Of a stretch of 64,000 nt of DNA, positions 1 to 38,118 are shown piece after piece. Each line of letters opens with the position of its first letter. Positions within the stretch are counted from its first letter, which is position 1. The position numbers and the translations under genes were made by a program. Source of the DNA: Actinomycetes bacterium (GTDB lineage: Bacteria > Actinomycetota > Acidimicrobiia > Acidimicrobiales > Microtrichaceae); contig JAAEPF010000021.1 of the NCBI GenBank assembly GCA_024222295.1, positions 1-64,000 of the forward strand, given 5' to 3'. The notes beneath the pieces are model-generated. The model was not told the origin of the DNA. It made no database searches and saw only the letters and a program-made list of their open reading frames with translations.

Positions 1-66
1 GTCGTCGACCGCGATGTGGCCGCAGACGATGAAGTCGTCGACCGCGATGTGGCCGCAGACGACGAG
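1..66 (+). repeat. In-frame 33-bp tandem repeat, two copies
   Basis: Two consecutive 33-base units (1-33 and 34-66) differ only at two third-codon positions and encode the acidic 11-mer VVDRDVAADDE twice. More copies may lie to the left of the window. Unit length is a multiple of three, so copy-number change would keep the frame. Confidence 0.85.
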
Positions 67-570
67 ATCGTCGATGAGCTGCCCGAGGACCTGAATCTGT
101 CCGAGTTCGTGGGTCCGTACACGTTCCCCAACAACAACCGGCGCCGGATTCCCGCGGCGATGTACATCGTGATCGGCCTCGGAGCGGTCTTGGCCTTCCT
201 GGCGCTCGAAGGGGAGTCTGCGCTGGTGAATGCGGGCCTCCTGGCCGCGGGGCTGTTGCTCTTGGCATTCGGTGTGTATGGGATGGTCGCAGGCTGGACG
301 CTGCGCGTCGATGAGACCGATGCGCTGGTGACGGCGTCGAAGCAGGTCGGCTTCGCGGTGGGCCATTCCTCGGCCCAGCAGGTGTGGCACGGGTGGCTGT
401 CGAGGCCGACGTGGCGGATCCTGCTCTACTCGGCCGAGAACCCGCCGCGGCGCCGCGGGATCGTGCTGATCGACGGTGTCAGCGGAGACGTGATCGAGTG
501 GTTCAGCGAGGACAACCCTGAGGACTGGGCCGATCTGGACCCCTCGCGCACATCGCTGTCAGGCGACTGA
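1..570 (+). CDS. Two-helix membrane protein of unknown function, 5' end outside window
   Basis: The reading frame is open from the first base, so the true start lies upstream; 189 residues are visible. The visible N-terminus is very acidic and begins with two copies of an 11-residue repeat (VVDRDVAADDE). It is followed by two hydrophobic segments, starting near MYIVIGLGAVLAF and VNAGLLAAGLLLLAFG, with only a few charged residues between them, which reads as a helical hairpin. The roughly 90-residue C-terminal part is soluble, with several Trp residues and the phrase GIVLIDGVSGDVIEW. I recognise no family. It lies upstream of the phosphatidylinositol phosphate synthase gene but is separated from it by 165 bases, so a shared operon is uncertain. 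A GTG at position 16 could also be a start but would cut the repeat in two. Confidence 0.7.
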   Translation, partial: VVDRDVAADDEVVDRDVAADDEIVDELPEDLNLSEFVGPYTFPNNNRRRIPAAMYIVIGLGAVLAFLALEGESALVNAGLLAAGLLLLAFGVYGMVAGWTLRVDETDALVTASKQVGFAVGHSSAQQVWHGWLSRPTWRILLYSAENPPRRRGIVLIDGVSGDVIEWFSEDNPEDWADLDPSRTSLSGD

Positions 571-735
571 AGCCGTGCCCGGGCGACTCGGCGTGGCCGG
601 GGCGCGTGACGGGTGCCACACTGGGTGCGACGTCCGCGGTGCTTCCATTCGGGGGCCTACCCGCGTAAAGTGCTAACTACTGCAAGCACTCTGGCCCGCG
701 GCGGGCTCGAGTCGGGCCCCGAGGAGGGCCAGCAC

Positions 736-1458
736 ATGTTCGACGGACAGTTCCGCACACAGGTAGACGCAGCCATGAAGCCGGTCGGCCGCGGCCTGGC
801 AAAGGCCGGCATCACGGCTGACGTGATAACGGCTGTTGGCCTTGCCATGTCCCTGGCCGCAGGGATCGCGATCGGAGCGGGGGCGTTGAGCCTCGGCCTG
901 CTGCTACTGATCCTCACCGGCATCCCGGACCTGCTCGACGGGGCCGTGGCCAAGGCCACGGGCAAGTCCAGCGTGCGCGGTGCGTTCTTCGACTCGATGG
1001 CAGACCGGATCACCGACGCCGTCCTGTTCGGAGCCCTTGCCTTCTACTTCGTGACAGAGGGCTCGAGTCCCTGGCTCGTGGTGCTGCCCGTCGCCGGGTA
1101 CGCCACGGCGTCATGGGTCTCCTACGTGCGGGCCAAGGCCGATGCACTCGGCTTCGATGCCCACGTCGGGTTCGTCGAGCGGGCGGAGCGCATCATCATC
1201 CTGGCCGTCGGGCTGTTGTTCGGCGGCACAGTGCTGGTGGTTGCACTCTGCTTGATAGTGGTCGCGAACCTCGTCACGTTCGGTCAGCGGTTCGTGGCCG
1301 TCTGGCGCCAGGCCACCGAGGCCACCCCCGCGCTCTCAGACGCGCTGTCCGACCGCAGGCGGCGCAGGGCCGCCCGATCCTCGAGCAGCGCGGCCGAACG
1401 CCGCGCAGCTCGTGCCGAACGCCGGCGCCGCCAGTCGGAGGCCCGGCGCAAGCGCTGA
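736..1458 (+). CDS. pgsA: CDP-alcohol phosphatidyltransferase, probable phosphatidylinositol phosphate synthase
   Basis: Predicted membrane enzyme of 240 residues that would transfer a phosphatidyl group from CDP-diacylglycerol to an inositol phosphate, the first step towards phosphatidylinositol and its mannosides. The CDP-alcohol signature is visible as D65-LL-D68-G69, A72-K73, G82, D86 and D90. The usual Arg of the DGxxAR block is Lys here. Several hydrophobic helices follow, and the protein ends in a very basic Arg-rich tail. I chose ATG at 736 because GAGGAGGG at 721-728 is a strong ribosome binding site and the family starts just before its first helix; an upstream in-frame start would add 41 unlikely residues. 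A possible -10 element TAAAGT lies at 666-671. The downstream patA and pimA genes support the phosphatidylinositol role over phosphatidylglycerol phosphate synthesis. Confidence 0.88.
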   Translation: MFDGQFRTQVDAAMKPVGRGLAKAGITADVITAVGLAMSLAAGIAIGAGALSLGLLLLILTGIPDLLDGAVAKATGKSSVRGAFFDSMADRITDAVLFGALAFYFVTEGSSPWLVVLPVAGYATASWVSYVRAKADALGFDAHVGFVERAERIIILAVGLLFGGTVLVVALCLIVVANLVTFGQRFVAVWRQATEATPALSDALSDRRRRRAARSSSSAAERRAARAERRRRQSEARRKR

Positions 1459-1502
1459 GCCCAACCGGCACAACGACGCCCACGCTGGGGTAGAACACGC
1501 CG

Positions 1503-2414
1503 ATGGACATCCCCGTATCGGCGCTGCGTGCCGCATCCGCCGCCATGGCGGTCACACCGGCGCCGTTGGCCAACGTGGCAGCACGCGGGATCGCAGCCGG
1601 GATCGCCGGGCTGTCCCCCGACGACCGCAAGATCGTCTCACGCAACCTGCAGCGCGCAGGGGTGCGCTTCAGCGGCCCGTTGGGCGAGGCCCGGGCCGTG
1701 CAGTCCGCGTTCGATTCCTACGCCCGGTACTGGGTTGACGTGCTGCGGCTCCCACACCTCTCGAAGCGTGCCGTCGACCACGGAATCACCCTCGATGGCT
1801 ACGGCATTGTCGAGGACGCGTTGGCCAGCGGCACGGCCCCCATCCTCGCTCTGCCCCACCTCGGGGGCTGGGAGTGGGCAGGCCACTGGTTGAGCACGGT
1901 CATGGGGCACAAGGTCGCGGCGGTTGTCGAGGAACTAGAGCCGAGGGAGCTCTACGACTGGTTCGTGGACCTGCGTGAAGGCCTGGGTCTCAACATCATC
2001 CCGCTGTCGGAGGGCTCCTCGGCGGTGGCGGCTGCCATCGCCGACGGCCAGATCATGTGCCTGCTGTGTGACCGGGACATCTCCGGCGGTGGCATCGAGG
2101 TCGAGTTCTTCGGAGAACGCACGACCCTGCCCGGAGGTCCGGCGCTGATGGCGTTGCGCAGCGGAGCGCCGCTACTGCCAGCCGCGGTGTACTTCCGGGG
2201 CAATGGCTGCCACGGCGTGGTGCAGGAGCCTCTCGACACAGAGCGCCGCGGCAAGTTGCGCGAAGACCTCACACGGGTCACCCAGGACCTGGCGCAGGCA
2301 ATGGAGGGTCTCATCCGGGCAGCGCCGAACCAGTGGCACCTGCTCCAGCCCAACTGGCCGAGCGACTACGAGGCCCTCGGCCGCCCCGTTCCCGGCGCGG
2401 ACCGGGGCCGGTAA
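1503..2414 (+). CDS. patA: Phosphatidylinositol mannoside acyltransferase (LpxL/HtrB family)
   Basis: A 303-residue acyltransferase of the lauroyl/myristoyl transferase family. The catalytic HX4E motif is visible as H119-LGGW-E124, and the block CDRDISGGGIEVEFFG followed by PGGPALMALRSGAPLLPA is typical of the family's acyl-acceptor region. In actinobacteria this protein acylates a mannose of phosphatidylinositol mannosides at the cytoplasmic face of the membrane. The assignment rests mainly on its position between pgsA and the mannosyltransferase pimA, the conserved actinobacterial order; the family alone would not distinguish it from lipid A acyltransferases. The ATG is preceded by TAGAAC at 1491-1496, a near match to the -10 hexamer seen at many genes in this window. 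Its TAA stop overlaps the likely -10 element of pimA. Confidence 0.88.
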   Translation: MDIPVSALRAASAAMAVTPAPLANVAARGIAAGIAGLSPDDRKIVSRNLQRAGVRFSGPLGEARAVQSAFDSYARYWVDVLRLPHLSKRAVDHGITLDGYGIVEDALASGTAPILALPHLGGWEWAGHWLSTVMGHKVAAVVEELEPRELYDWFVDLREGLGLNIIPLSEGSSAVAAAIADGQIMCLLCDRDISGGGIEVEFFGERTTLPGGPALMALRSGAPLLPAAVYFRGNGCHGVVQEPLDTERRGKLREDLTRVTQDLAQAMEGLIRAAPNQWHLLQPNWPSDYEALGRPVPGADRGR

Positions 2415-2417
2415 CCT
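2412..2417 (+). promoter_or_regulatory. -10 element (TAACCT) of leaderless pimA promoter
   Basis: TAACCT ends seven bases before the GTG of pimA, so transcription would start at or next to the start codon. Its first three bases are the stop codon of patA. Confidence 0.55.
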
Positions 2418-2424
2418 GCGCGCC

Positions 2425-3522
2425 GTGCGAATCGGCCTCGTCTGCCCATACAGCCTCACCATGCCCGGCGGCGTGCAGAACCAGGTGATGGCGCTCGCCC
2501 GCGCACTGCGCAGTCGCGGCCACGAGGCCAGGGTGCTCGCTCCGTGCGACGGCCCGCCGCCGGCCGCCTTCGTGGTGCCGCTGGGGGCCAGCGTGCGTCA
2601 GCCCAGCAACGGCTCCGTAGCTCCCATCGCACCCGATCCGGCTGCGCAGTTCCGCACCATCCAGGCGCTCTGGGCCGAGGACTTCGACGTGCTGCACCTG
2701 CACGAGCCGGGAGTGCCGGGCCCGGCTCTCACCTCGATGTTCGTGAAGCCGGCACCGATCGTCGGCACGTTCCACGCCGCCGGCTCCCAGCCGGCATACG
2801 ACGTCCTGGGGCCGGTTGCGCGGCGCGTGGGCGCGCGGATCGACTGCAAGGTGGCGGTGTCCCGGGACGCTCTGGAGCTGGCCGCCCCATCGGTCGGCGG
2901 CGATTGGGTGACCTTGTTCAATGGCATCGAGCTCGGTGGTCTGCAGAGCGCAACGCCCTGGCCGACCGCCGGTCCAACAGTCTTCTTCCTCGGGCGCCAC
3001 GAGCCGCGCAAGGGGCTTCCGGTGCTGCTCGACGCGCTCGGCGCCATGCGCGATGACGTCACCATCTGGGTGGCGGGCGAAGGAGACGAGACCGCCGAGT
3101 TGCGCCGCCGCCACACCGACAGCCGGATCGAATGGCTGGGTCGCATCGACGATGCCGAGCGGGATTCCCGCATGGTCAGCGCAGACGTCTTCTGTGCACC
3201 GTCGCTCGGGGGTGAGTCGTTCGGGATCATCCTGCTCGAGGCGATGGCCGCCGGCACCGCAGTGGTGGCCAGCGCTATTCCGGGATACACGAAGGTGGCC
3301 ACCGCCGAGGCTCCCGATGGCTCGCTGCCCGCGACGCCTGCGGCCGTGCTCGTGCCCCCGGGAGATGCCCAGGGGTTGGGCAAGGCGATCCAGGGTGTGC
3401 TCGACGACCCCGTGGGCACCAAGTCGCTGGTCGACAGTGGTCTGCGACGCGCCGCTGCTTTCGACATGGAACTGCTTGCAGACCGCTACGAGGCCCTATA
3501 CACGGGGCTCCTCTCCGGCTGA
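2425..3522 (+). CDS. pimA: GDP-mannose:phosphatidylinositol alpha-mannosyltransferase
   Basis: GT4-type, GT-B fold glycosyltransferase of 365 residues that would add the first mannose to phosphatidylinositol at the inner membrane surface. The start VRIGLVCPYSLTMPGGVQNQ matches the N-terminus of the PimA family, with the glycine-rich loop near residues 15-17. The C-terminal donor domain shows GGESFGIILLEAMAAG, containing the EX7E motif of GT4 enzymes. GTG at 2425 was chosen because homologues begin exactly there and because TAACCT ends seven bases upstream, pointing to a leaderless message. An in-frame start further upstream would overlap patA by more than 200 bases. Third gene of the pgsA-patA-pimA cluster. 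Confidence 0.92.
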   Translation: MRIGLVCPYSLTMPGGVQNQVMALARALRSRGHEARVLAPCDGPPPAAFVVPLGASVRQPSNGSVAPIAPDPAAQFRTIQALWAEDFDVLHLHEPGVPGPALTSMFVKPAPIVGTFHAAGSQPAYDVLGPVARRVGARIDCKVAVSRDALELAAPSVGGDWVTLFNGIELGGLQSATPWPTAGPTVFFLGRHEPRKGLPVLLDALGAMRDDVTIWVAGEGDETAELRRRHTDSRIEWLGRIDDAERDSRMVSADVFCAPSLGGESFGIILLEAMAAGTAVVASAIPGYTKVATAEAPDGSLPATPAAVLVPPGDAQGLGKAIQGVLDDPVGTKSLVDSGLRRAAAFDMELLADRYEALYTGLLSG

Positions 3523-3561
3523 TACGGCTCGACGGATTCCGGAGCCGGTCCGCCACTGCAG

Positions 3562-3567
3562 TAAATT
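3562..3567 (+). promoter_or_regulatory. -10 element (TAAATT) with TTCCGG upstream
   Basis: TAAATT ends seven bases before the ATG at 3575. TTCCGG at 3537-3542 lies 19 bases upstream of it. Suggests leaderless transcription of the M48-like gene. Confidence 0.55.
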
Positions 3568-3574
3568 GGCGCAG

Positions 3575-4363
3575 ATGGAGGCGCCTTCGCGATTCGACCA
3601 GGCCCTGGCGGCATCCCTGCGAAGGGCGACGGTGGTGGGTGCTGTGGCCGCGGTGGTTCTGGGCGCGCTGTTGGCAGTGTTCGTGCACATCGTCGTGGGT
3701 GTACTCGTGATGGTGGTCGCCGGTGCCGCGTGGGTGCTGTGGGTGCAGTCGGCCTTCGCCTCGGCAGCCAGCCGGGTCGTTTCCGACCTCGGTCGACCCG
3801 TCGGGCAACAGGACCTGCCTGGCTTCCACAACGCGCTGGAGGGGGTTGCGTTGCTCACGGGCGTCGCCGAGCCCGCAGTGCGCCTGATCGAGTCCCCCGC
3901 AGCCAACGCGATGGTGGTTGCCGACCGCGACTCGAGCACCGTGGTGGTCACCTCGGGACTGCTGGAGACCGACAGTGCCGTGCAGGTCGAAGTGCTGGCC
4001 GCCGAGCTGCTGTGCCGGGTGCGCGACGGCTCGGCCCGCTACGCCACGCTCGTCGCGGGCCTGCCTGCACCGCTCAAGGCCGCTGCCGGCCTCGGATCTG
4101 CGAGCCTGGCGGCCACTCTCGGCGAGCAGCGCGCGCTGGATGGCGACTTCGACGCGGTGGCGGTCACCCGGTACCCGCCGGGGCTGATCGCTGCGCTGGA
4201 GGAGATGACCGAACGAGGGACTGCGGTGCACGGTGCACAACCGCAGACAGCCCCGCTGTGGATTGCACCGGCCGTGGGTATCGACGACGGCGTCGATCCA
4301 GCCGTCGACCGCACGGCCAACCAGCCGATCGAGCACCGGATCGCAGTGTTGCGGGAACTCTGA
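3575..4363 (+). CDS. Membrane-anchored M48-like protein with lost zinc ligands
   Basis: A 262-residue protein with two adjacent hydrophobic helices (about residues 19-60) followed by a domain that reads like an M48 (HtpX/Ste24-type) metallopeptidase: a segment around residues 99-114 ending in SPAANAMVV, then VVVTSGLLE and a C-terminal TRYPPGLIAALEEM. At the place of the zinc-binding HExxH the sequence is A143-E-L-L-C147, so both histidines are gone while the Glu remains. The third ligand of the family (Glu of ExxAD) aligns with D189. I infer a non-catalytic relative that kept the fold, perhaps a binding or quality-control adaptor. The ATG at 3575 is supported by TAAATT seven bases upstream. 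Lies between pimA and a DUF3048 gene. Confidence 0.7.
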   Translation: MEAPSRFDQALAASLRRATVVGAVAAVVLGALLAVFVHIVVGVLVMVVAGAAWVLWVQSAFASAASRVVSDLGRPVGQQDLPGFHNALEGVALLTGVAEPAVRLIESPAANAMVVADRDSSTVVVTSGLLETDSAVQVEVLAAELLCRVRDGSARYATLVAGLPAPLKAAAGLGSASLAATLGEQRALDGDFDAVAVTRYPPGLIAALEEMTERGTAVHGAQPQTAPLWIAPAVGIDDGVDPAVDRTANQPIEHRIAVLREL

Positions 4364-25393: not shown

Positions 25394-28300
25394 ATGCGTA
25401 GCAAGTTCCTTGTACTCACGTGCCTGTTGTCGGCCGTCGTGCTGGTCTCTGCGGCCTGCACGACTCCATCCAACAACGTCAACACGCCGCCCACGGCCGT
25501 GCTGACTGCGTCACCCGATTCGGGAGGGCCCCCTCTCGAGGTGTTCTTCTCGGGGCTGCTCAGCAGCGACCCCGGCGGCACCATCACCGACTACCACTGG
25601 GACTTCGGTGACGGCAACGTCTCCACCGACCCTGAGCCCTCCAACACCTACACAGCCGACGGCGTCTACACGGTCACCCTCACGGTGACCGATGACAAGG
25701 GTGCAACCGGCGTCGACACCACAGACATCACGGTGGTCACGCCCAACGCCCCGCCGACCACGACCGCCGGCGCCGACGTCACCTCGGGCGTCGAGCCGCT
25801 CACGGTCAACTTCACCTCGTCTCCGGCTGACTCCGACGGCACTGTCCTCTCGGTCGAGTGGGACTTCGGTGACGGCAACACCTCGACCGACACCGACCCG
25901 AGCCACACCTACGCGACCGCCGGGTTGTACAGCGCCGTGGTGACGGTGACCGACGACGATGGAGCCATCGCATCGGACTCCATCGACATCACGGTCAACG
26001 CCAACCAGGCCCCCACCGCTGTTGCCACCTCGGACGTGACCTCGGGCAAGACCCCGCTCGCAGTCACCTTCGACGGCTCCGGCTCGAGTGACCCCGATAA
26101 CGCGATCGTCAGCTACGCATGGGACTTCGGTGACGGCAACTCCGACACCGGCGCAACCCCGGCAGCGCACACCTACACCGCAGCCGGCAACTACACGGCG
26201 AGCCTCACGGTCACCGACACGCTCGGGGGGTTCAACACCGACACCGTCAACGTCACGGTCTCGGACAACGTGGCTCCACTGGCCGACGCCCAGGCGACGC
26301 CTACCTCGGGTGAGTTCCCGCTGGCCGTCACTTTCGACGGCTCCGGCTCGTCTGACTCCGACGGCTCCATCCTGAGCTACAGCTGGGACTTCGGCGACGG
26401 CAACTCCGCCACCGGCGCAACTCCGGCCGCTCACACGTACACCGCTGCGGGCAGCTACGACGCTGTTCTCACCGTGACCGACGACAACAGCGCCATCGGC
26501 ACCGACACAGTCACGATCTCGGTGGACGCGCCCAACGTGGCCCCGACGGCCGCCATCAGCTCGGACACCACCTCTGGTCCGGAGGACCTCGAGGTGAACT
26601 TCGACGGCACGGGCTCGACCGATTCCGACGGAACCATCGTCAGCTACGCGTGGGACTTCGGTGACGGAGGCTCCTCCAACGCCGCTGCCCCGACCTACAC
26701 GTACTTGACGCCGGGCACCTACACGGCGTCTCTCACCGTCACCGACGATGACAGCGCAACCGACTCCAAATCGGTGTCGATCACCGTCCTTGCCAACCAG
26801 GCCCCGAACGCGGCGGCGAGCGCCAACCCGCTCACCGGCAAGGAGGACCTGGAGGTCGACTTCGACGGCACGGGCTCGACCGATCCCGACGGAACCATCG
26901 TCAGCTACGCATGGGACTTCGGTGACGGCAACAACGGCACCGGTGCCACGCCGACGCACACCTACGTCGACGACGGCACCTACACGGCCACTCTGACGGT
27001 CACCGACGAGGACGCAGCGACCGACGATGCCTCGGTGACGATCACGGTCAACCCCAACACGCCGCCCACTGCGGCAATCTCGGCGAACCCCACGAGCGGC
27101 GCACGCCCGCTGGTGGTCAACTTCGACTCGTCTGCCTCATCGGATCCCGACGGCACGATCGTGTCGACCGAATGGGACTTCGGTGATGGCAACACGTCGA
27201 CCGCCGCAGCTCCCAGCCACACGTACTCGGAGGGCAACTACACAGCGACGCTGACCGTCCACGACGACAGCGGGGACAGCGCCTCCAAGACAGTGGGCAT
27301 CTCCGTGGTCATCGACGACGACGGCGACGGCGTGTCGCCTCCCACGGACTGTGACGACAACGCCTCGGGCACCTACCCGGGTGCTGCCGACCCGCTGGAT
27401 GCCGGCGGTGTCGACAGCAACTGTGACGGTGCCGACGGTGACGCCTCGGACACGCTGTTCGTGAGCACCACTGGCACCGACTCGGGTTCCTGTGGTGCCA
27501 TCGGCTCTCCCTGCGCAACGATCGGCCAGGGCGTCACCAACGCAAGCGGCATCGGCAAGGGCGTTGTGCAGGTGTCCAACGGTGCGTTCGGCGGCTTCAC
27601 CCTCACGGGTGACCTGGTCGTCCGCGGCGGCTACGAGACCGACTTCGACGGCCGGACCGGCACGACCACGGTGACTGGCAGCGGGACGGGCGTGCTCGCC
27701 AGTGGCACCAGCACCGGTGCCACCCTCCAGGACCTCGCGGTCGACTCGGGAACCCCAACCGGTGCGGGAGCGAGCGCCTACGGCGTGCTTGCGACCGGAT
27801 CCACCCTGTTGATCGTGGACTCCACGGTTACCGCGGCGGCCGGCAACGCCGGCAACTCGGGCGGCTCGAAGCCGTCTACGCCGGGCAACGCCTGCAACGG
27901 TGGCAACGGCGCCAACGCCAGCGGCCCGGGCTCGCCCGGCAACGGAGGCTCCGGCTGCTCCGGAACCTCGCCGAGCAACTCCGGTGGCGGCGGCCGCGGT
28001 GGTGACTACAGCGGCTCCGGCAACGGCGGTGGCTCCGGTGGCGGTGGCGCCGGTGGCGGCAACGGCGGCTGCGGCAGCCTCTTCGGTTGCGGTACCAACG
28101 CCGGTGGCGGTGGCGGCGGCGCCGGTGGTGGCGCAGGATCGGCCGGTTCCGCAGGCTCGAACAGCGTCTCCGGCTCCGGTGCGACCTACGTCGGCCAGAA
28201 CGGCACCGGCGGTGGTGGCGGCGCCCGCGGCGCCGGCGCCGGCGGCGGTGGTGGCGGCAAGTCCGCCTCGGCCTCCGGTGGTGGCGGTGGTGGCGGTGGT

Positions 28301-28840
28301 GCCGGTGGCACCGGCGGTACCGCTGGCTCCGGCGGTGGCAGCTACGGCGGTGGCTCCTTCGGTGTCTACTCCCACGACTCCAACGTGACCCTCACCAACA
28401 GCACGGTTACCGCCGGCAATGGTGGCAACGGTGGCGCCGGCCAGGCCGGTGGCAACGGCGGCCGCGGCGGCAACGGCGGCAACGGCGGTACCAGGTCCTG
28501 CTGCCTCGCAGGCGGCGGTGGCGGTGGCGGTGCCGGCGGTGGTGGTGGCGCCGGTAGTGGCGCCGGTGGTGGCGCCGGTGGCCCGTCGATCGCCGTGTTC
28601 AACATCGGCACGGGCACCCTTGCCGAGTCTGGCAACACCCTCGCACCAGGCACGAGCTCCGGTTCCGGAGGCTCGGGCGGATCCGGAGGCTCCGGTGGCT
28701 CGGCGGGCTCGACCGGGTCCGGCACCCAGGGTGCCGGCGGTGGAGGCACTGGCAACGGTGGCTCCACCGGCAACGGCGCAGCTTCAGGTGCCAACGGACT
28801 GAAGCTGTCGATCTGGGACAACGGCACCACCACTGCCTGA
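25394..28840 (+). CDS. Giant secreted lipoprotein with seven PKD domains, a MopE-like motif and a glycine-rich tail
   Basis: A 1148-residue exported protein. The N-terminal signal peptide ends in VSAAC, a loose lipobox, so a lipid anchor is likely. Seven PKD domains follow (about residues 35-640), each with a WDFGDG core and an LTVTDD-like or LTVHDD strand. Then comes an Asp-rich DDDGDGVSPPTDCDDN segment with NCDGADGD, resembling the metal-binding motif of MopE-type proteins, then a beta-helix-like stretch (about 690-815) starting LFVSTTGTDSGSCG. The last 310 residues are dominated by GG-x-GG and GSGG repeats like those of mycobacterial PGRS proteins. GAGGGGG lies ahead of the ATG. The message ends in a strong hairpin terminator. 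A surface-adhesive or matrix role is inference; no enzymatic signature is present. Confidence 0.85.
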   Translation: MRSKFLVLTCLLSAVVLVSAACTTPSNNVNTPPTAVLTASPDSGGPPLEVFFSGLLSSDPGGTITDYHWDFGDGNVSTDPEPSNTYTADGVYTVTLTVTDDKGATGVDTTDITVVTPNAPPTTTAGADVTSGVEPLTVNFTSSPADSDGTVLSVEWDFGDGNTSTDTDPSHTYATAGLYSAVVTVTDDDGAIASDSIDITVNANQAPTAVATSDVTSGKTPLAVTFDGSGSSDPDNAIVSYAWDFGDGNSDTGATPAAHTYTAAGNYTASLTVTDTLGGFNTDTVNVTVSDNVAPLADAQATPTSGEFPLAVTFDGSGSSDSDGSILSYSWDFGDGNSATGATPAAHTYTAAGSYDAVLTVTDDNSAIGTDTVTISVDAPNVAPTAAISSDTTSGPEDLEVNFDGTGSTDSDGTIVSYAWDFGDGGSSNAAAPTYTYLTPGTYTASLTVTDDDSATDSKSVSITVLANQAPNAAASANPLTGKEDLEVDFDGTGSTDPDGTIVSYAWDFGDGNNGTGATPTHTYVDDGTYTATLTVTDEDAATDDASVTITVNPNTPPTAAISANPTSGARPLVVNFDSSASSDPDGTIVSTEWDFGDGNTSTAAAPSHTYSEGNYTATLTVHDDSGDSASKTVGISVVIDDDGDGVSPPTDCDDNASGTYPGAADPLDAGGVDSNCDGADGDASDTLFVSTTGTDSGSCGAIGSPCATIGQGVTNASGIGKGVVQVSNGAFGGFTLTGDLVVRGGYETDFDGRTGTTTVTGSGTGVLASGTSTGATLQDLAVDSGTPTGAGASAYGVLATGSTLLIVDSTVTAAAGNAGNSGGSKPSTPGNACNGGNGANASGPGSPGNGGSGCSGTSPSNSGGGGRGGDYSGSGNGGGSGGGGAGGGNGGCGSLFGCGTNAGGGGGGAGGGAGSAGSAGSNSVSGSGATYVGQNGTGGGGGARGAGAGGGGGGKSASASGGGGGGGGAGGTGGTAGSGGGSYGGGSFGVYSHDSNVTLTNSTVTAGNGGNGGAGQAGGNGGRGGNGGNGGTRSCCLAGGGGGGGAGGGGGAGSGAGGGAGGPSIAVFNIGTGTLAESGNTLAPGTSSGSGGSGGSGGSGGSAGSTGSGTQGAGGGGTGNGGSTGNGAASGANGLKLSIWDNGTTTA
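27840..28800 (+). repeat. Low-complexity GGC/GGT-rich tract encoding Gly-rich repeats
   Basis: Degenerate trinucleotide-type repetition encodes long runs of Gly with interspersed Ala, Ser and Asn in the lipoprotein C-terminus. The underlying DNA is built of GGCGGTGGC-like units without a fixed period, a likely hotspot for slippage and assembly error. Confidence 0.8.
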
Positions 28841-35295: not shown

Positions 35296-35727
35296 TCAGC
35301 TGTCAGCTCCTGTGGCCTCGAGGTGCGCGTTCAGCACGCTCCACGCCTCGACGCCCGCTTCGTGGCGCCACAAGAGGCGAAGGGCGCGTCGGAACGCCGG
35401 CCCGTGGGCCGCTTCGTGCCCGGCTGCAAGGTGTGCCAATTCGTGCAGCACCGTTTCGAGGCCCCAGCCATGCCCGTCGACTATCGCCATGATCCCGACC
35501 TCGTCGGCCGTCGTGCAAGCCGCAGACCAGGTGGCGTTGCGAGAGCGCCTCTGCAGCTCCAGCTCGACCGGTGCAGCGGGAAACGTCTCATCCCACCAAT
35601 CGCCGACAACCACCGACTCGACGTATGCCTCCAGCTCGCTGAAGCGGCCGAAGCGTCGCAGCGGTAGGTCGCGGATCGCTGCGGCCTCGGCCGCGTAGAC
35701 CGCCCGCGCATCGCCATCAGCGCCCAA
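35296..35727 (-). CDS. Putative zinc metallopeptidase (TIGR04338-like)
   Basis: A 143-residue protein whose C-terminal half carries a zinc-binding motif H-E-L-A-H in ETVLHELAHLAAGHEAAHGPAF, with two further His residues within ten positions that could give the third ligand. No signal peptide or helix is evident. It is the second gene after a DUF2786 protein on the same strand, an association known in actinobacteria for proteins of the TIGR04338 putative metallohydrolase family. The start is TTG at 35727; no in-frame ATG is available nearby. The gap from the DUF2786 gene is 11 bases, so one transcript is likely. Substrate unknown. Confidence 0.7.
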   Translation of the reverse strand: MGADGDARAVYAAEAAAIRDLPLRRFGRFSELEAYVESVVVGDWWDETFPAAPVELELQRRSRNATWSAACTTADEVGIMAIVDGHGWGLETVLHELAHLAAGHEAAHGPAFRRALRLLWRHEAGVEAWSVLNAHLEATGADS

Positions 35728-35738
35728 GCCGGACAGCC

Positions 35739-36503
35739 TCAGGCCGTGAGGGCCCTGGCGCCGCGCAGGGCCGCCTCGCCGAGCCCCGCCCTGCTACCCG
35801 CGTCGCGGCCAGCGCTGTGCCCGCTGCGTGAGGACCCCGCATCCATGCGACGGCTGCGCAGGTAGGGGTAGCGGCGACTCACCTCGGCGTCCACGGCCTC
35901 CTCGCGTGCCACCAGCACCAGTGCCAACGACTGATCCGGCGCCTCCGCCGGCCCGGAGCGGCGCTGGTCGGCGACATGTGCCGCCTCAGTACGCCGTGCG
36001 TCGGCCAGGCGCTCGGCCACTCGGGCTGTGAACCCCGAGATGAAGCTCCGTCGCCATGCGGCCGTGGCGCCCGGCGAGCCGCGTCGGGCCCCCCGGCGCG
36101 GGCCGCCCGCCAGCATCGAGCGTGTGAGCTGCACGAGCAGCGACGTGACCAGCACCTCCATGCGGTCGAGGTCACCGGGAAACCCCACTGCGGCGACCCT
36201 GCGGACCCCGTCGGGTTCGGAACCGACGTCGATCACTGTGCAGCCAGCGTGCTCGCCGACCGCCCCGAACAGCGAGACCTTTCGGGCCGCGTAAGGAGAC
36301 GGAACCACGAGCAGGCGCTCGGTGGGTTGTTCGGTGCCGGCCTCCTGTTCGCCGGCGGCAGCCCACACGAGGGCCTCCTCGATCGAGTGCCGAGCCATCA
36401 ACTCGGCGACCTTGGCCAGGCACGACTCGCGTTCCGACTCGAAGTCGGTGGCCTCCGCACGGCTGAGCAGCTTCTGTATGACCCTGAGTGTGGCGTCGCT
36501 CAT
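35739..36503 (-). CDS. DUF2786 domain protein
   Basis: A 254-residue protein. The first 45 residues form the DUF2786 domain (RVIQKLLSRAEATDFESERESCLAKVAELMARHSIEEALV), followed by a longer alpha/beta region with LLVVPSPYAARKVSLFGAVGEHAGC and a Ser/Arg/Gly-rich C-terminal tail. The family has no known function but is often found next to a small metallopeptidase, as here. ATG at 36503 is supported by TAGGTT seven bases upstream, a leaderless arrangement. Two direct copies of a palindromic sequence lie just upstream and overlap the expected -35 position, suggesting regulated expression. Confidence 0.72.
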   Translation of the reverse strand: MSDATLRVIQKLLSRAEATDFESERESCLAKVAELMARHSIEEALVWAAAGEQEAGTEQPTERLLVVPSPYAARKVSLFGAVGEHAGCTVIDVGSEPDGVRRVAAVGFPGDLDRMEVLVTSLLVQLTRSMLAGGPRRGARRGSPGATAAWRRSFISGFTARVAERLADARRTEAAHVADQRRSGPAEAPDQSLALVLVAREEAVDAEVSRRYPYLRSRRMDAGSSRSGHSAGRDAGSRAGLGEAALRGARALTA

Positions 36504-36510
36504 GTTCGAC

Positions 36511-36516
36511 AACCTA
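36511..36516 (-). promoter_or_regulatory. -10 element (TAGGTT, minus strand) of leaderless DUF2786 promoter
   Basis: On the minus strand TAGGTT ends seven bases before the ATG at 36503. Confidence 0.55.
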
Positions 36517-36526
36517 CGGCTCCGGT

Positions 36527-36569
36527 GTGACACGCAGTGTCGTTGCTGCTGCCGTGACACGCAGTGTCG
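36527..36569. promoter_or_regulatory. Two identical palindromic direct repeats, candidate operators
   Basis: GTGACACGCAGTGTCG occurs exactly at 36527-36542 and 36554-36569. Each contains the inverted repeat GACAC-GCA-GTGTC, and the copies are 27 bp apart centre to centre. The first overlaps the expected -35 position of the DUF2786 promoter. They also follow directly after the mscS stop codon, so a role as small hairpins ending mscS is the alternative. Confidence 0.6.
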
Positions 36570-36572
36570 CCA

Positions 36573-37661
36573 TCATGTGTCGGCTTCGCCGCCGTCGTTT
36601 CGCACCCAGACGGTGCGTTGCGGGAACGGGATCTCTATGCCCGCCTCGTCGAGGGCGAGCTTGAAGCGCCGGTTGAGCTCACGCTGCACGTCGAACTGGC
36701 GAGCCGGGCGGGTGCGCACCGAGATGCGGATCGTGACTGCATCAGCCGCCAAGTCCTCGACGCCGCGCACCTCCGGCTCATCGAGGAAGGAGTCCTCCCA
36801 CTCGGGGTCATGGGCCAATTCGTGCGCAGTGTCCAGCAGCACGCCGGATGCCAGGTCGGTGTCGGTGCCGTATGCCACTCCGACGTCGAGCAATGCCTTC
36901 GACCAGTTCTGGCTCTTGTTGCCGACCCTTTCGATCGCACCGTTGGGGACGTGCCAGAGGGTGCCGTAGATGTCGCGCACGACGGTGGTGCGCAGAGTGA
37001 TGCGCTCGACGGTGCCGCTGTCCTCGCCCAGGTCGATCACGTCGCCAACGCCGAACTGGTCCTCGCTGATCATGAAGATGCCCGACAGGAAGTCGCCGAC
37101 CACCTTCTGGGCACCGAAACCGAGCGCCACTCCGAGGATTCCGGCTCCGGCCACCAATGGCGCCAGGTTGATGCCGATCTCGCCGAGCACGAGGATCACC
37201 GCGATCGTCCAGACCCCGAACCGGGTCATCGCGTAGATGACGTGAGCGAGCGTCTCGGTGCGCTGGTGGACGCGAAGGTTCTCCTGTTCGAGCTCGGTCC
37301 TGATGCGCTCGGGTACGTCGTCATCCTCGGCCTGCTGGTTCTTGATCTTCACCGCGCTCTGCGCGACACGGTCCATTCCCCGGTAGATGGCCCGTTTGAG
37401 AACGAAGAGCATCACGAACGCGACGGCCAATATCACGAGGATCTGCACGACGTTGTTCGAGAAGAACTCGGTCGCGTCAGCCAGGCCCTCGCTCTTGGTG
37501 CGGTCATACACCCAGCGGCAGATGCCCTCGCCTTCGAGGTCGCAGCCACCGACGCCCTCGAAGGCCTCGGCGACAGTGTCGGTCTGGTCGTCGGAATCGG
37601 CGTTGTCGCCCTGCAATCGTCCGAGCAAGAGGCCGATCCGACCAAACAGTGCTGCCGTCAT
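36573..37661 (-). CDS. MscS-type mechanosensitive channel
   Basis: Membrane protein of 362 residues. An N-terminal 60-residue soluble segment with two Cys (GGCDLEGEGICRW) precedes three helices: one around QILVILAVAFVMLFVLKRAIY, one around FGVWTIAVILVLGEIGI, and the pore helix LVAGAGILGVALGFGAQKVVGDFLSGIFM with the Gly/Ala packing pattern of MscS. The beta domain follows with EDQFGVGDVIDLGEDSGTVERITLRTTVVRD and PNGAIERVGNKSQNWS. It is predicted to open under membrane tension to release solutes. ATG at 37661 has GGAGGTGG as ribosome binding site and is preferred to a much longer in-frame start upstream. The N-terminal Cys-containing extension is unusual for the family. Confidence 0.9.
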   Translation of the reverse strand: MTAALFGRIGLLLGRLQGDNADSDDQTDTVAEAFEGVGGCDLEGEGICRWVYDRTKSEGLADATEFFSNNVVQILVILAVAFVMLFVLKRAIYRGMDRVAQSAVKIKNQQAEDDDVPERIRTELEQENLRVHQRTETLAHVIYAMTRFGVWTIAVILVLGEIGINLAPLVAGAGILGVALGFGAQKVVGDFLSGIFMISEDQFGVGDVIDLGEDSGTVERITLRTTVVRDIYGTLWHVPNGAIERVGNKSQNWSKALLDVGVAYGTDTDLASGVLLDTAHELAHDPEWEDSFLDEPEVRGVEDLAADAVTIRISVRTRPARQFDVQRELNRRFKLALDEAGIEIPFPQRTVWVRNDGGEADT

Positions 37662-37785
37662 CTGGCCACCTCCTGCGGCTCTGACACGAGCGCGTGGCTG
37701 CACGCGACCCCGGACGCTACTGCCAGCCCGTCCGGGCGCGAGGCATTGTTCTGCCGGGCGGGCCCGATTGCGCCATGATGGAGCC

Positions 37786-38118
37786 ATGAAGCGACTGTTC
37801 TGGATGGGCGTCGGAGCCGCAGCGGGTGCGTCCGGGACCGTCTGGGCGCAGCGGAAGGTGCGCTCCAGTATCGACGAGCTGGGCGCGGAGCAGGTCGTCG
37901 CAGCCGCCGGCCGCGGGGCCCGTGCCATGGGCCGCAGTGTGCGGGCAGCCGTGAGCGAGGGCCGTGCAGGCATGGTCGAGCGCGAGATCGAGCTCAAAGG
38001 GAGGCTGTTCGGCACCGAGGCCTCCCTCGACCTGCGCCGCGACCCGGGCGCCGGTGACCCACCACTGCGGGTGCTGCGCGGATCAAACGCTTCTGGTGTG
38101 CGCCGGTCCGCTCGGTAA
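37786..38118 (+). CDS. Small protein resembling DUF6167
   Basis: A 110-residue protein with an N-terminal hydrophobic stretch (RLFWMGVGAAAGASGTVWA) followed by a charged helical region (VRSSIDELGAEQVVAAAGRGARAMGRSVRAAVSEGRAGMVEREIEL). The short FWxxxGAAAG opening and the downstream REIEL ending recall the DUF6167 proteins that precede alaS in actinobacteria. Function unknown. The frame is open upstream, but the hydrophobic start after ATG at 37786 fits the family. Its TAA stop forms the start of the probable -10 element of alaS. Confidence 0.65.
   Translation: MKRLFWMGVGAAAGASGTVWAQRKVRSSIDELGAEQVVAAAGRGARAMGRSVRAAVSEGRAGMVEREIELKGRLFGTEASLDLRRDPGAGDPPLRVLRGSNASGVRRSAR

Follow-up and report, generated by a model that had tools for sequence, protein, structure and literature searches.

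The MscS–DUF2786 locus and its twin palindromes

The window analysed here is a stretch of 64,000 nucleotides from a genome of 3.76 Mb in 115 contigs (G000). On the minus strand it carries, in this order, a gene for an MscS-type channel, a 69-bp gap, a DUF2786 gene and a HExxH metallohydrolase-like gene (Table 1). The gap runs from the MscS stop codon to the DUF2786 ATG (36503–36501), and within it lie two copies of the 16-base sequence GTGACACGCAGTGTCG. The earlier note described these as two exact palindromic copies 27 bp apart, which was borne out: the copies are identical at 16/16 positions, with a start-to-start distance of 27 bp. Elsewhere in the window, positions 27979–28572 hold a long imperfect GGC/GGT-rich repeat array resembling a glycine-rich protein.

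Table 1. Positions of genes and sequence elements at the locus, numbered along the window
Feature	Position	Strand	Remarks
HExxH metallohydrolase-like gene	35296..35727	-	TIGR04338, 45.2 bits, under the cut-off of 90
DUF2786 gene	35739..36503	-	PF10979, E 1.2e-10
-10-like hexamer TAGGTT	36511..36516	-	7 nt before the DUF2786 ATG; putative leaderless promoter
MscS-end remnant VTPEP*, out of frame	36514..36531	-	in-frame MscS end in the three nearest relatives
TGTC box	36529..36532	-	16 nt upstream of the -10-like hexamer; conserved in the family's DUF2786 promoters
Gene-proximal 16-mer copy, GACAC-GCA-GTGTC	36527..36542	.	-24 to -39 from the DUF2786 ATG
Distal 16-mer copy, identical	36554..36569	.	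-51 to -66 from the DUF2786 ATG
MscS-type channel gene	36573..37820	-	stop certain (36573–36575); span is the stretch scanned, true start may differ

The palindrome by itself is ordinary and no more than chance would give. When the window is cut into 927 consecutive 69-mers, 111 of them contain one of this shape (5-bp arms, 3-base loop), as do 7% of shuffles of the 69-bp gap. When loops of 0–8 bases are allowed the gap holds two palindromes, and at least two are found in 15.5% of its shuffles. Matches to the pattern GACACNNNGTGTC with up to two mismatches are not in excess in the window either, with 36 found against a mean of 56 expected. The unusual part is the local exact repeat: exact repeats of at least 16 bases at 17–60 bp occur at five places in the 64-kb window, the twin being one of them. 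Given a first copy, copying it supplies the second palindrome as well.

The two copies also agree in the non-self-complementary centre GCA and in flanking letters. A palindromic operator would not require an identical centre and flanks, whereas a copied patch would share them. Outside the 16 bases the 27-bp units match at only 3/11 positions and the spacer is unrelated, so simple decay of a 27-bp tandem duplication does not account for the arrangement. The step from 16/16 inside to 3/11 outside implies either that a 16-base patch was copied or that selection keeps 16 bases; judged by the letters of the two copies, it cuts both ways between duplication and operator.

A TGTC box in the DUF2786 promoter

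Of 61 genomes searched, 41 gave a DUF2786 homologue, the own genome among them. Upstream DNA was read for 30 of these 41, again with the own genome, and thus for 29 of 40 relatives. Five named loci encoding relatives of the window's DUF2786 protein (L035–L039), all from Microthrixaceae MAGs, were left out of the promoter-box counts because the same contigs had already been counted.

When the loci were aligned by start codon, 18 of 30 had a hexamer of the type TAGGTT, TAGGCT, GAGGCT, GAGGAT or AAGGCT 6–7 nt before the start codon, the other 12 having no hexamer at the required distance. A -10-like hexamer this near the start codon suggests a leaderless transcript. The tetramer TGTC lies exactly 16 nt upstream of the hexamer in 10 of the 18, and GTC in 13; the own genome is counted among both the 18 and the 10. 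The TGTC-bearing loci come from five of the seven genera represented among the 18 hexamer-bearing homologues. With one representative drawn per genus, TGTC was present in 3, 4 or 5 of the 7 (mean 3.9, 3000 draws), as against shuffled sequences in which the best tetramer at any offset reached 3 in 93 of 3000 trials and never reached 4. The box had already been spotted when this test was made.

That TGTC might mark promoters in general was rejected: among 18 -10-like contexts (80 sources, 367,811 bases, a small sample with crude gene calling), TGTC at this offset was seen only in the DUF2786 promoter itself. The constant spacing of TGTC and a -10-like hexamer in DUF2786 promoters, seen in several genera of this family, is a small, testable lead.

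One arm of the gene-proximal palindrome coincides with the TGTC box. In this respect the overlap with the promoter that the earlier note had proposed stands, the arm lying on a conserved element. The '-35 position' named there is only approximate, since a scan for sigma70-type consensus promoters over 36200–36800 found none. The position of TGTC within the proximal arm would explain constraint on part of the site, and the palindrome is not needed for this.

Searches in relatives and in the own genome

Conservation upstream of DUF2786 homologues, which had been proposed as a check on the site, was not found. Within 220 bp upstream of the DUF2786 match, GACACNNNGTGTC occurred in 0 of the 29 relatives read (for L021, 33 bp only), including all three with the MscS–DUF2786 order. 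One locus (L013) comes close, with GACAC-N4-GTGTC some 160 bp upstream. In another (L010, genome G004), the 220 bases upstream of the DUF2786 homologue contain an intergenic run of GGGGTCAGA-like motif variants on the opposite strand.

A search of the own genome for like sites, also proposed earlier, gave no excess over the control: GACACNNNGTGTC is found at four places, compared with three for the reversed control pattern. Long reading frames contain both of the sites outside the twin (L040, position 2279 in ORF 1435–2562; L041, position 2354 in ORF 20–3844), and none was found at other promoters of this genome. With up to three mismatches, the 16-mer matches 26 times forward and 16 times in reverse, the control 24 and 21 times, and at up to one mismatch no further repeats of it were found in the genome. 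For the exact GACACNNNGTGTC motif, the own genome gives no indication of a regulon. An absence of the sites elsewhere had been named as an outcome that would speak against regulation; the promoters of the own genome show just this, and for the family it holds only in part, since one genome (G001) has a twin before acs.

A hypervariable MscS tail at the position of the twin

In the three nearest relatives (G001, G016 and G024) the MscS frame reaches a TAG 9–10 nt before the DUF2786 ATG. The MscS tail after the residues WVR is 10 residues long in G001, 16 in G016 and 54 in G024, ending in VTPDS*, DVTAPE* and DVTEGP*, respectively, so that the stretch occupied by the twin in the window corresponds to a hypervariable MscS C-terminal tail in these genomes. 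The window's MscS stops earlier, and at the equivalent place VTPEP* is encoded out of frame with MscS. The VTPEP* frame translates the twin as ATLRVTAAA-TTLRVTPEP*, the 27 bp corresponding to nine codons. Given the tail variation and the out-of-frame VTPEP*, the stretch therefore looks like a degenerated, hypervariable MscS end. The frame at the MscS end may be affected by an assembly error.

A probable lineage-specific local duplication

We favour, with modest confidence, a lineage-specific local duplication over the DUF2786 promoter region. A 16-bp stretch that by chance held a short palindrome would have been copied locally in one lineage, within a hypervariable MscS end that is also, presumably, the DUF2786 promoter region. 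The TGTC box, together with the AGGTT/AGGCT hexamer 6–7 nt before the start codon, would form the working and probably leaderless DUF2786 promoter, and the palindrome around the TGTC box and its second copy would have no conserved regulatory role. The copies are exact, neighbouring and missing from the corresponding position of the relatives that were read, as a local duplication predicts. Short duplications in variable gene tails are comparable in having exact adjacent copies that are absent in relatives, here in a tail of 10–54 residues; the window differs from them in that the exact part covers only 16 of the 27 bases and the spacer is unrelated.

Several points weigh against a duplication, the acs twin of G001 described below among them. 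To go by the sequence, the 3/11 agreement outside the 16 bases would also be expected from selection on both copies, and the constrained TGTC box could be half of a regulator's site. The feature is real and most likely has an ordinary explanation; the regulatory claim, though possible, gains no support from conservation or from a regulon. The result mostly counsels caution: however striking the twin palindrome at this promoter, it fails comparative tests.

A possible twin operator and the acs twin of G001

In place of a local duplication, a dimeric regulator might bind both palindromes, the proximal one covering the DUF2786 core promoter and so blocking or helping RNA polymerase. We regard this as rather unlikely, but it has several observations on its side. 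Two exact palindromes with inverted-repeat half-sites are located at a promoter, one arm lies on the conserved TGTC box, and the two units agree in the 16 bases but not in the spacer. The earlier note took the identical tandem sites as strongly indicating a dimeric repressor or activator, a claim that we could not uphold: they are absent upstream of DUF2786 in 29/29 relatives read, the own genome offers no further promoter sites, and the copies share non-palindromic letters. The search for a candidate regulator covered WhiA.

The main result against a duplication is another twin, likewise spaced at 27 bp, upstream of acs in G001, a member of the same family, and it is because of this twin that we do not rate the operator lower. 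Among 395 genomes of the class searched for two GACACNNNGTGTC sites 10–24 bases apart, 2 had such a pair, the own genome and G001, and in each the gap is exactly 14. The same two genomes were the only ones, of 33 in the family, with two sites at gaps of 8–30. The 395 genomes were drawn from the larger class and include 11 of the 33 family genomes, while the family search took all 33; the reversed control pattern occurred as a twin in none of the genomes of either search. As a yardstick, one composition-matched control palindrome, ACGACNNNGTCGT, was searched as a twin in the class and gave twins in 6/395 genomes against 2/395 for the GACAC twin, which tells against the operator; ACGACNNNGTCGT is probably commoner because it contains more CG than the real palindrome.

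The G001 twin, GACACGCGGTGTC, resembles that of the window in its palindrome, with one centre A changed to G, and in its spacing. Unlike the window twin it is a plain tandem duplication, exact over the full 27 bp, and it follows a -10-like hexamer, GATACTCT, and precedes a different gene. Nor is it conserved before acs. Among 30 acs loci fetched (33 genomes searched), paired arms at 27-bp spacing were seen only in G001, and a conserved acs operator was rejected on this count. In this survey one locus (L147) was misread because the match starts inside the gene, and three (L134, L130 and L135) had only about 24–110 upstream bases. The twin is missing from acs in the congeneric G016 and in the own genome, and G024 has a single GACAC half near its place. 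The G001 and window twins are likely a coincidence of recent duplications.

In a more doubtful variant of regulation, the DUF2786 genes of the family would share the TGTC element as the site of one regulator; the element would have been expanded to two palindromic operators in the own genome, and acs of G001 would have recruited that regulator. If the twin were an operator, it would be a first handle on the control of this uncharacterised DUF2786 gene; a literature search for DUF2786 gave five papers, with a single mention in each.

Hairpins and WhiA

It is very improbable that the copies act as RNA hairpins or as the MscS terminator, or belong to an interspersed (REP-like) palindrome family. 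The last of these could be suggested by two other genomes, G009 and G041, in which GACACNNNGTGTC in many instances forms the tip of a longer hairpin, but the window copies have no longer arms and, as shown above, the 16-mer is not repeated elsewhere in its genome. Folding of either strand equals that of shuffles (z −0.01 and 0.24), and no terminator-like site, with a hairpin followed by a T run, was found. These possibilities are refuted as far as the folding, terminator and repeat tests reach.

Least probable of all is a cluster of WhiA sites, in which WhiA would bind the GACAC half-sites; this is close to refuted, and a highly diverged WhiA would be needed. The window's 5-base half-site is the WhiA motif of Streptomyces venezuelae as given in PMC3781837, but the same paper describes WhiA as a monomer binding an asymmetric site. 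In the own genome the HTH_WhiA domain (PF02650) was not found, with controls positive, and LAGLIDADG_WhiA (PF14527) was found in 0 of 21 genomes including the own, with positive controls such as Corynebacterium glutamicum. A literature search for the literal motif string found no paper. It is a separate observation that neither domain was found in the own genome, nor PF14527 in 20 relatives, despite the description of WhiA in PMC3781837 as widespread in Gram-positive bacteria.

Related palindromes in viral contigs and other genomes

GACAC-N3-GTGTC twins were found in 18 viral stretches. The gap is 21 in six contigs, with a TTTAATTACATTTTAC-like spacer (L155, 7494–7540; L164, 7790–7836; L158, L159, L162 and L169), and of other lengths elsewhere. 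The window's gap of 14 was seen in none of the 18, and a phage origin of the window twin was rejected. In L155 and L164 the twin lies upstream of a gene for a 110-aa protein that resembles, by eye, an HTH repressor, and the gap-21 twin is possibly the operator of an autoregulated repressor. These viral twins share with the window two close palindromes upstream of a small gene, and differ in gap length and in being AT-rich. They indicate that the shape can occur at operator-like places, which counts to that extent for a twin operator, and show nothing about the window itself.

The palindrome also recurs within longer structures in two genomes. In G009, GACACNNNGTGTC occurs 11 times among the matches listed (control, 1), and at six of eight sites viewed by eye it tips a near-perfect hairpin that is long and has GCGAACTTTGTGCGGAAAG-like arms (L063, L110, L116, L118, L120 and L122); these hairpins look like an interspersed palindrome family. 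In G041 it occurs 18 times among the matches listed (control, 1), and at six of eight sites viewed by eye (L109, L111, L113, L115, L117 and L121) arms resembling TTCTTTTCC and GGGAAAAGAA stand on either side of it, and these are perfect in some of the sites only.
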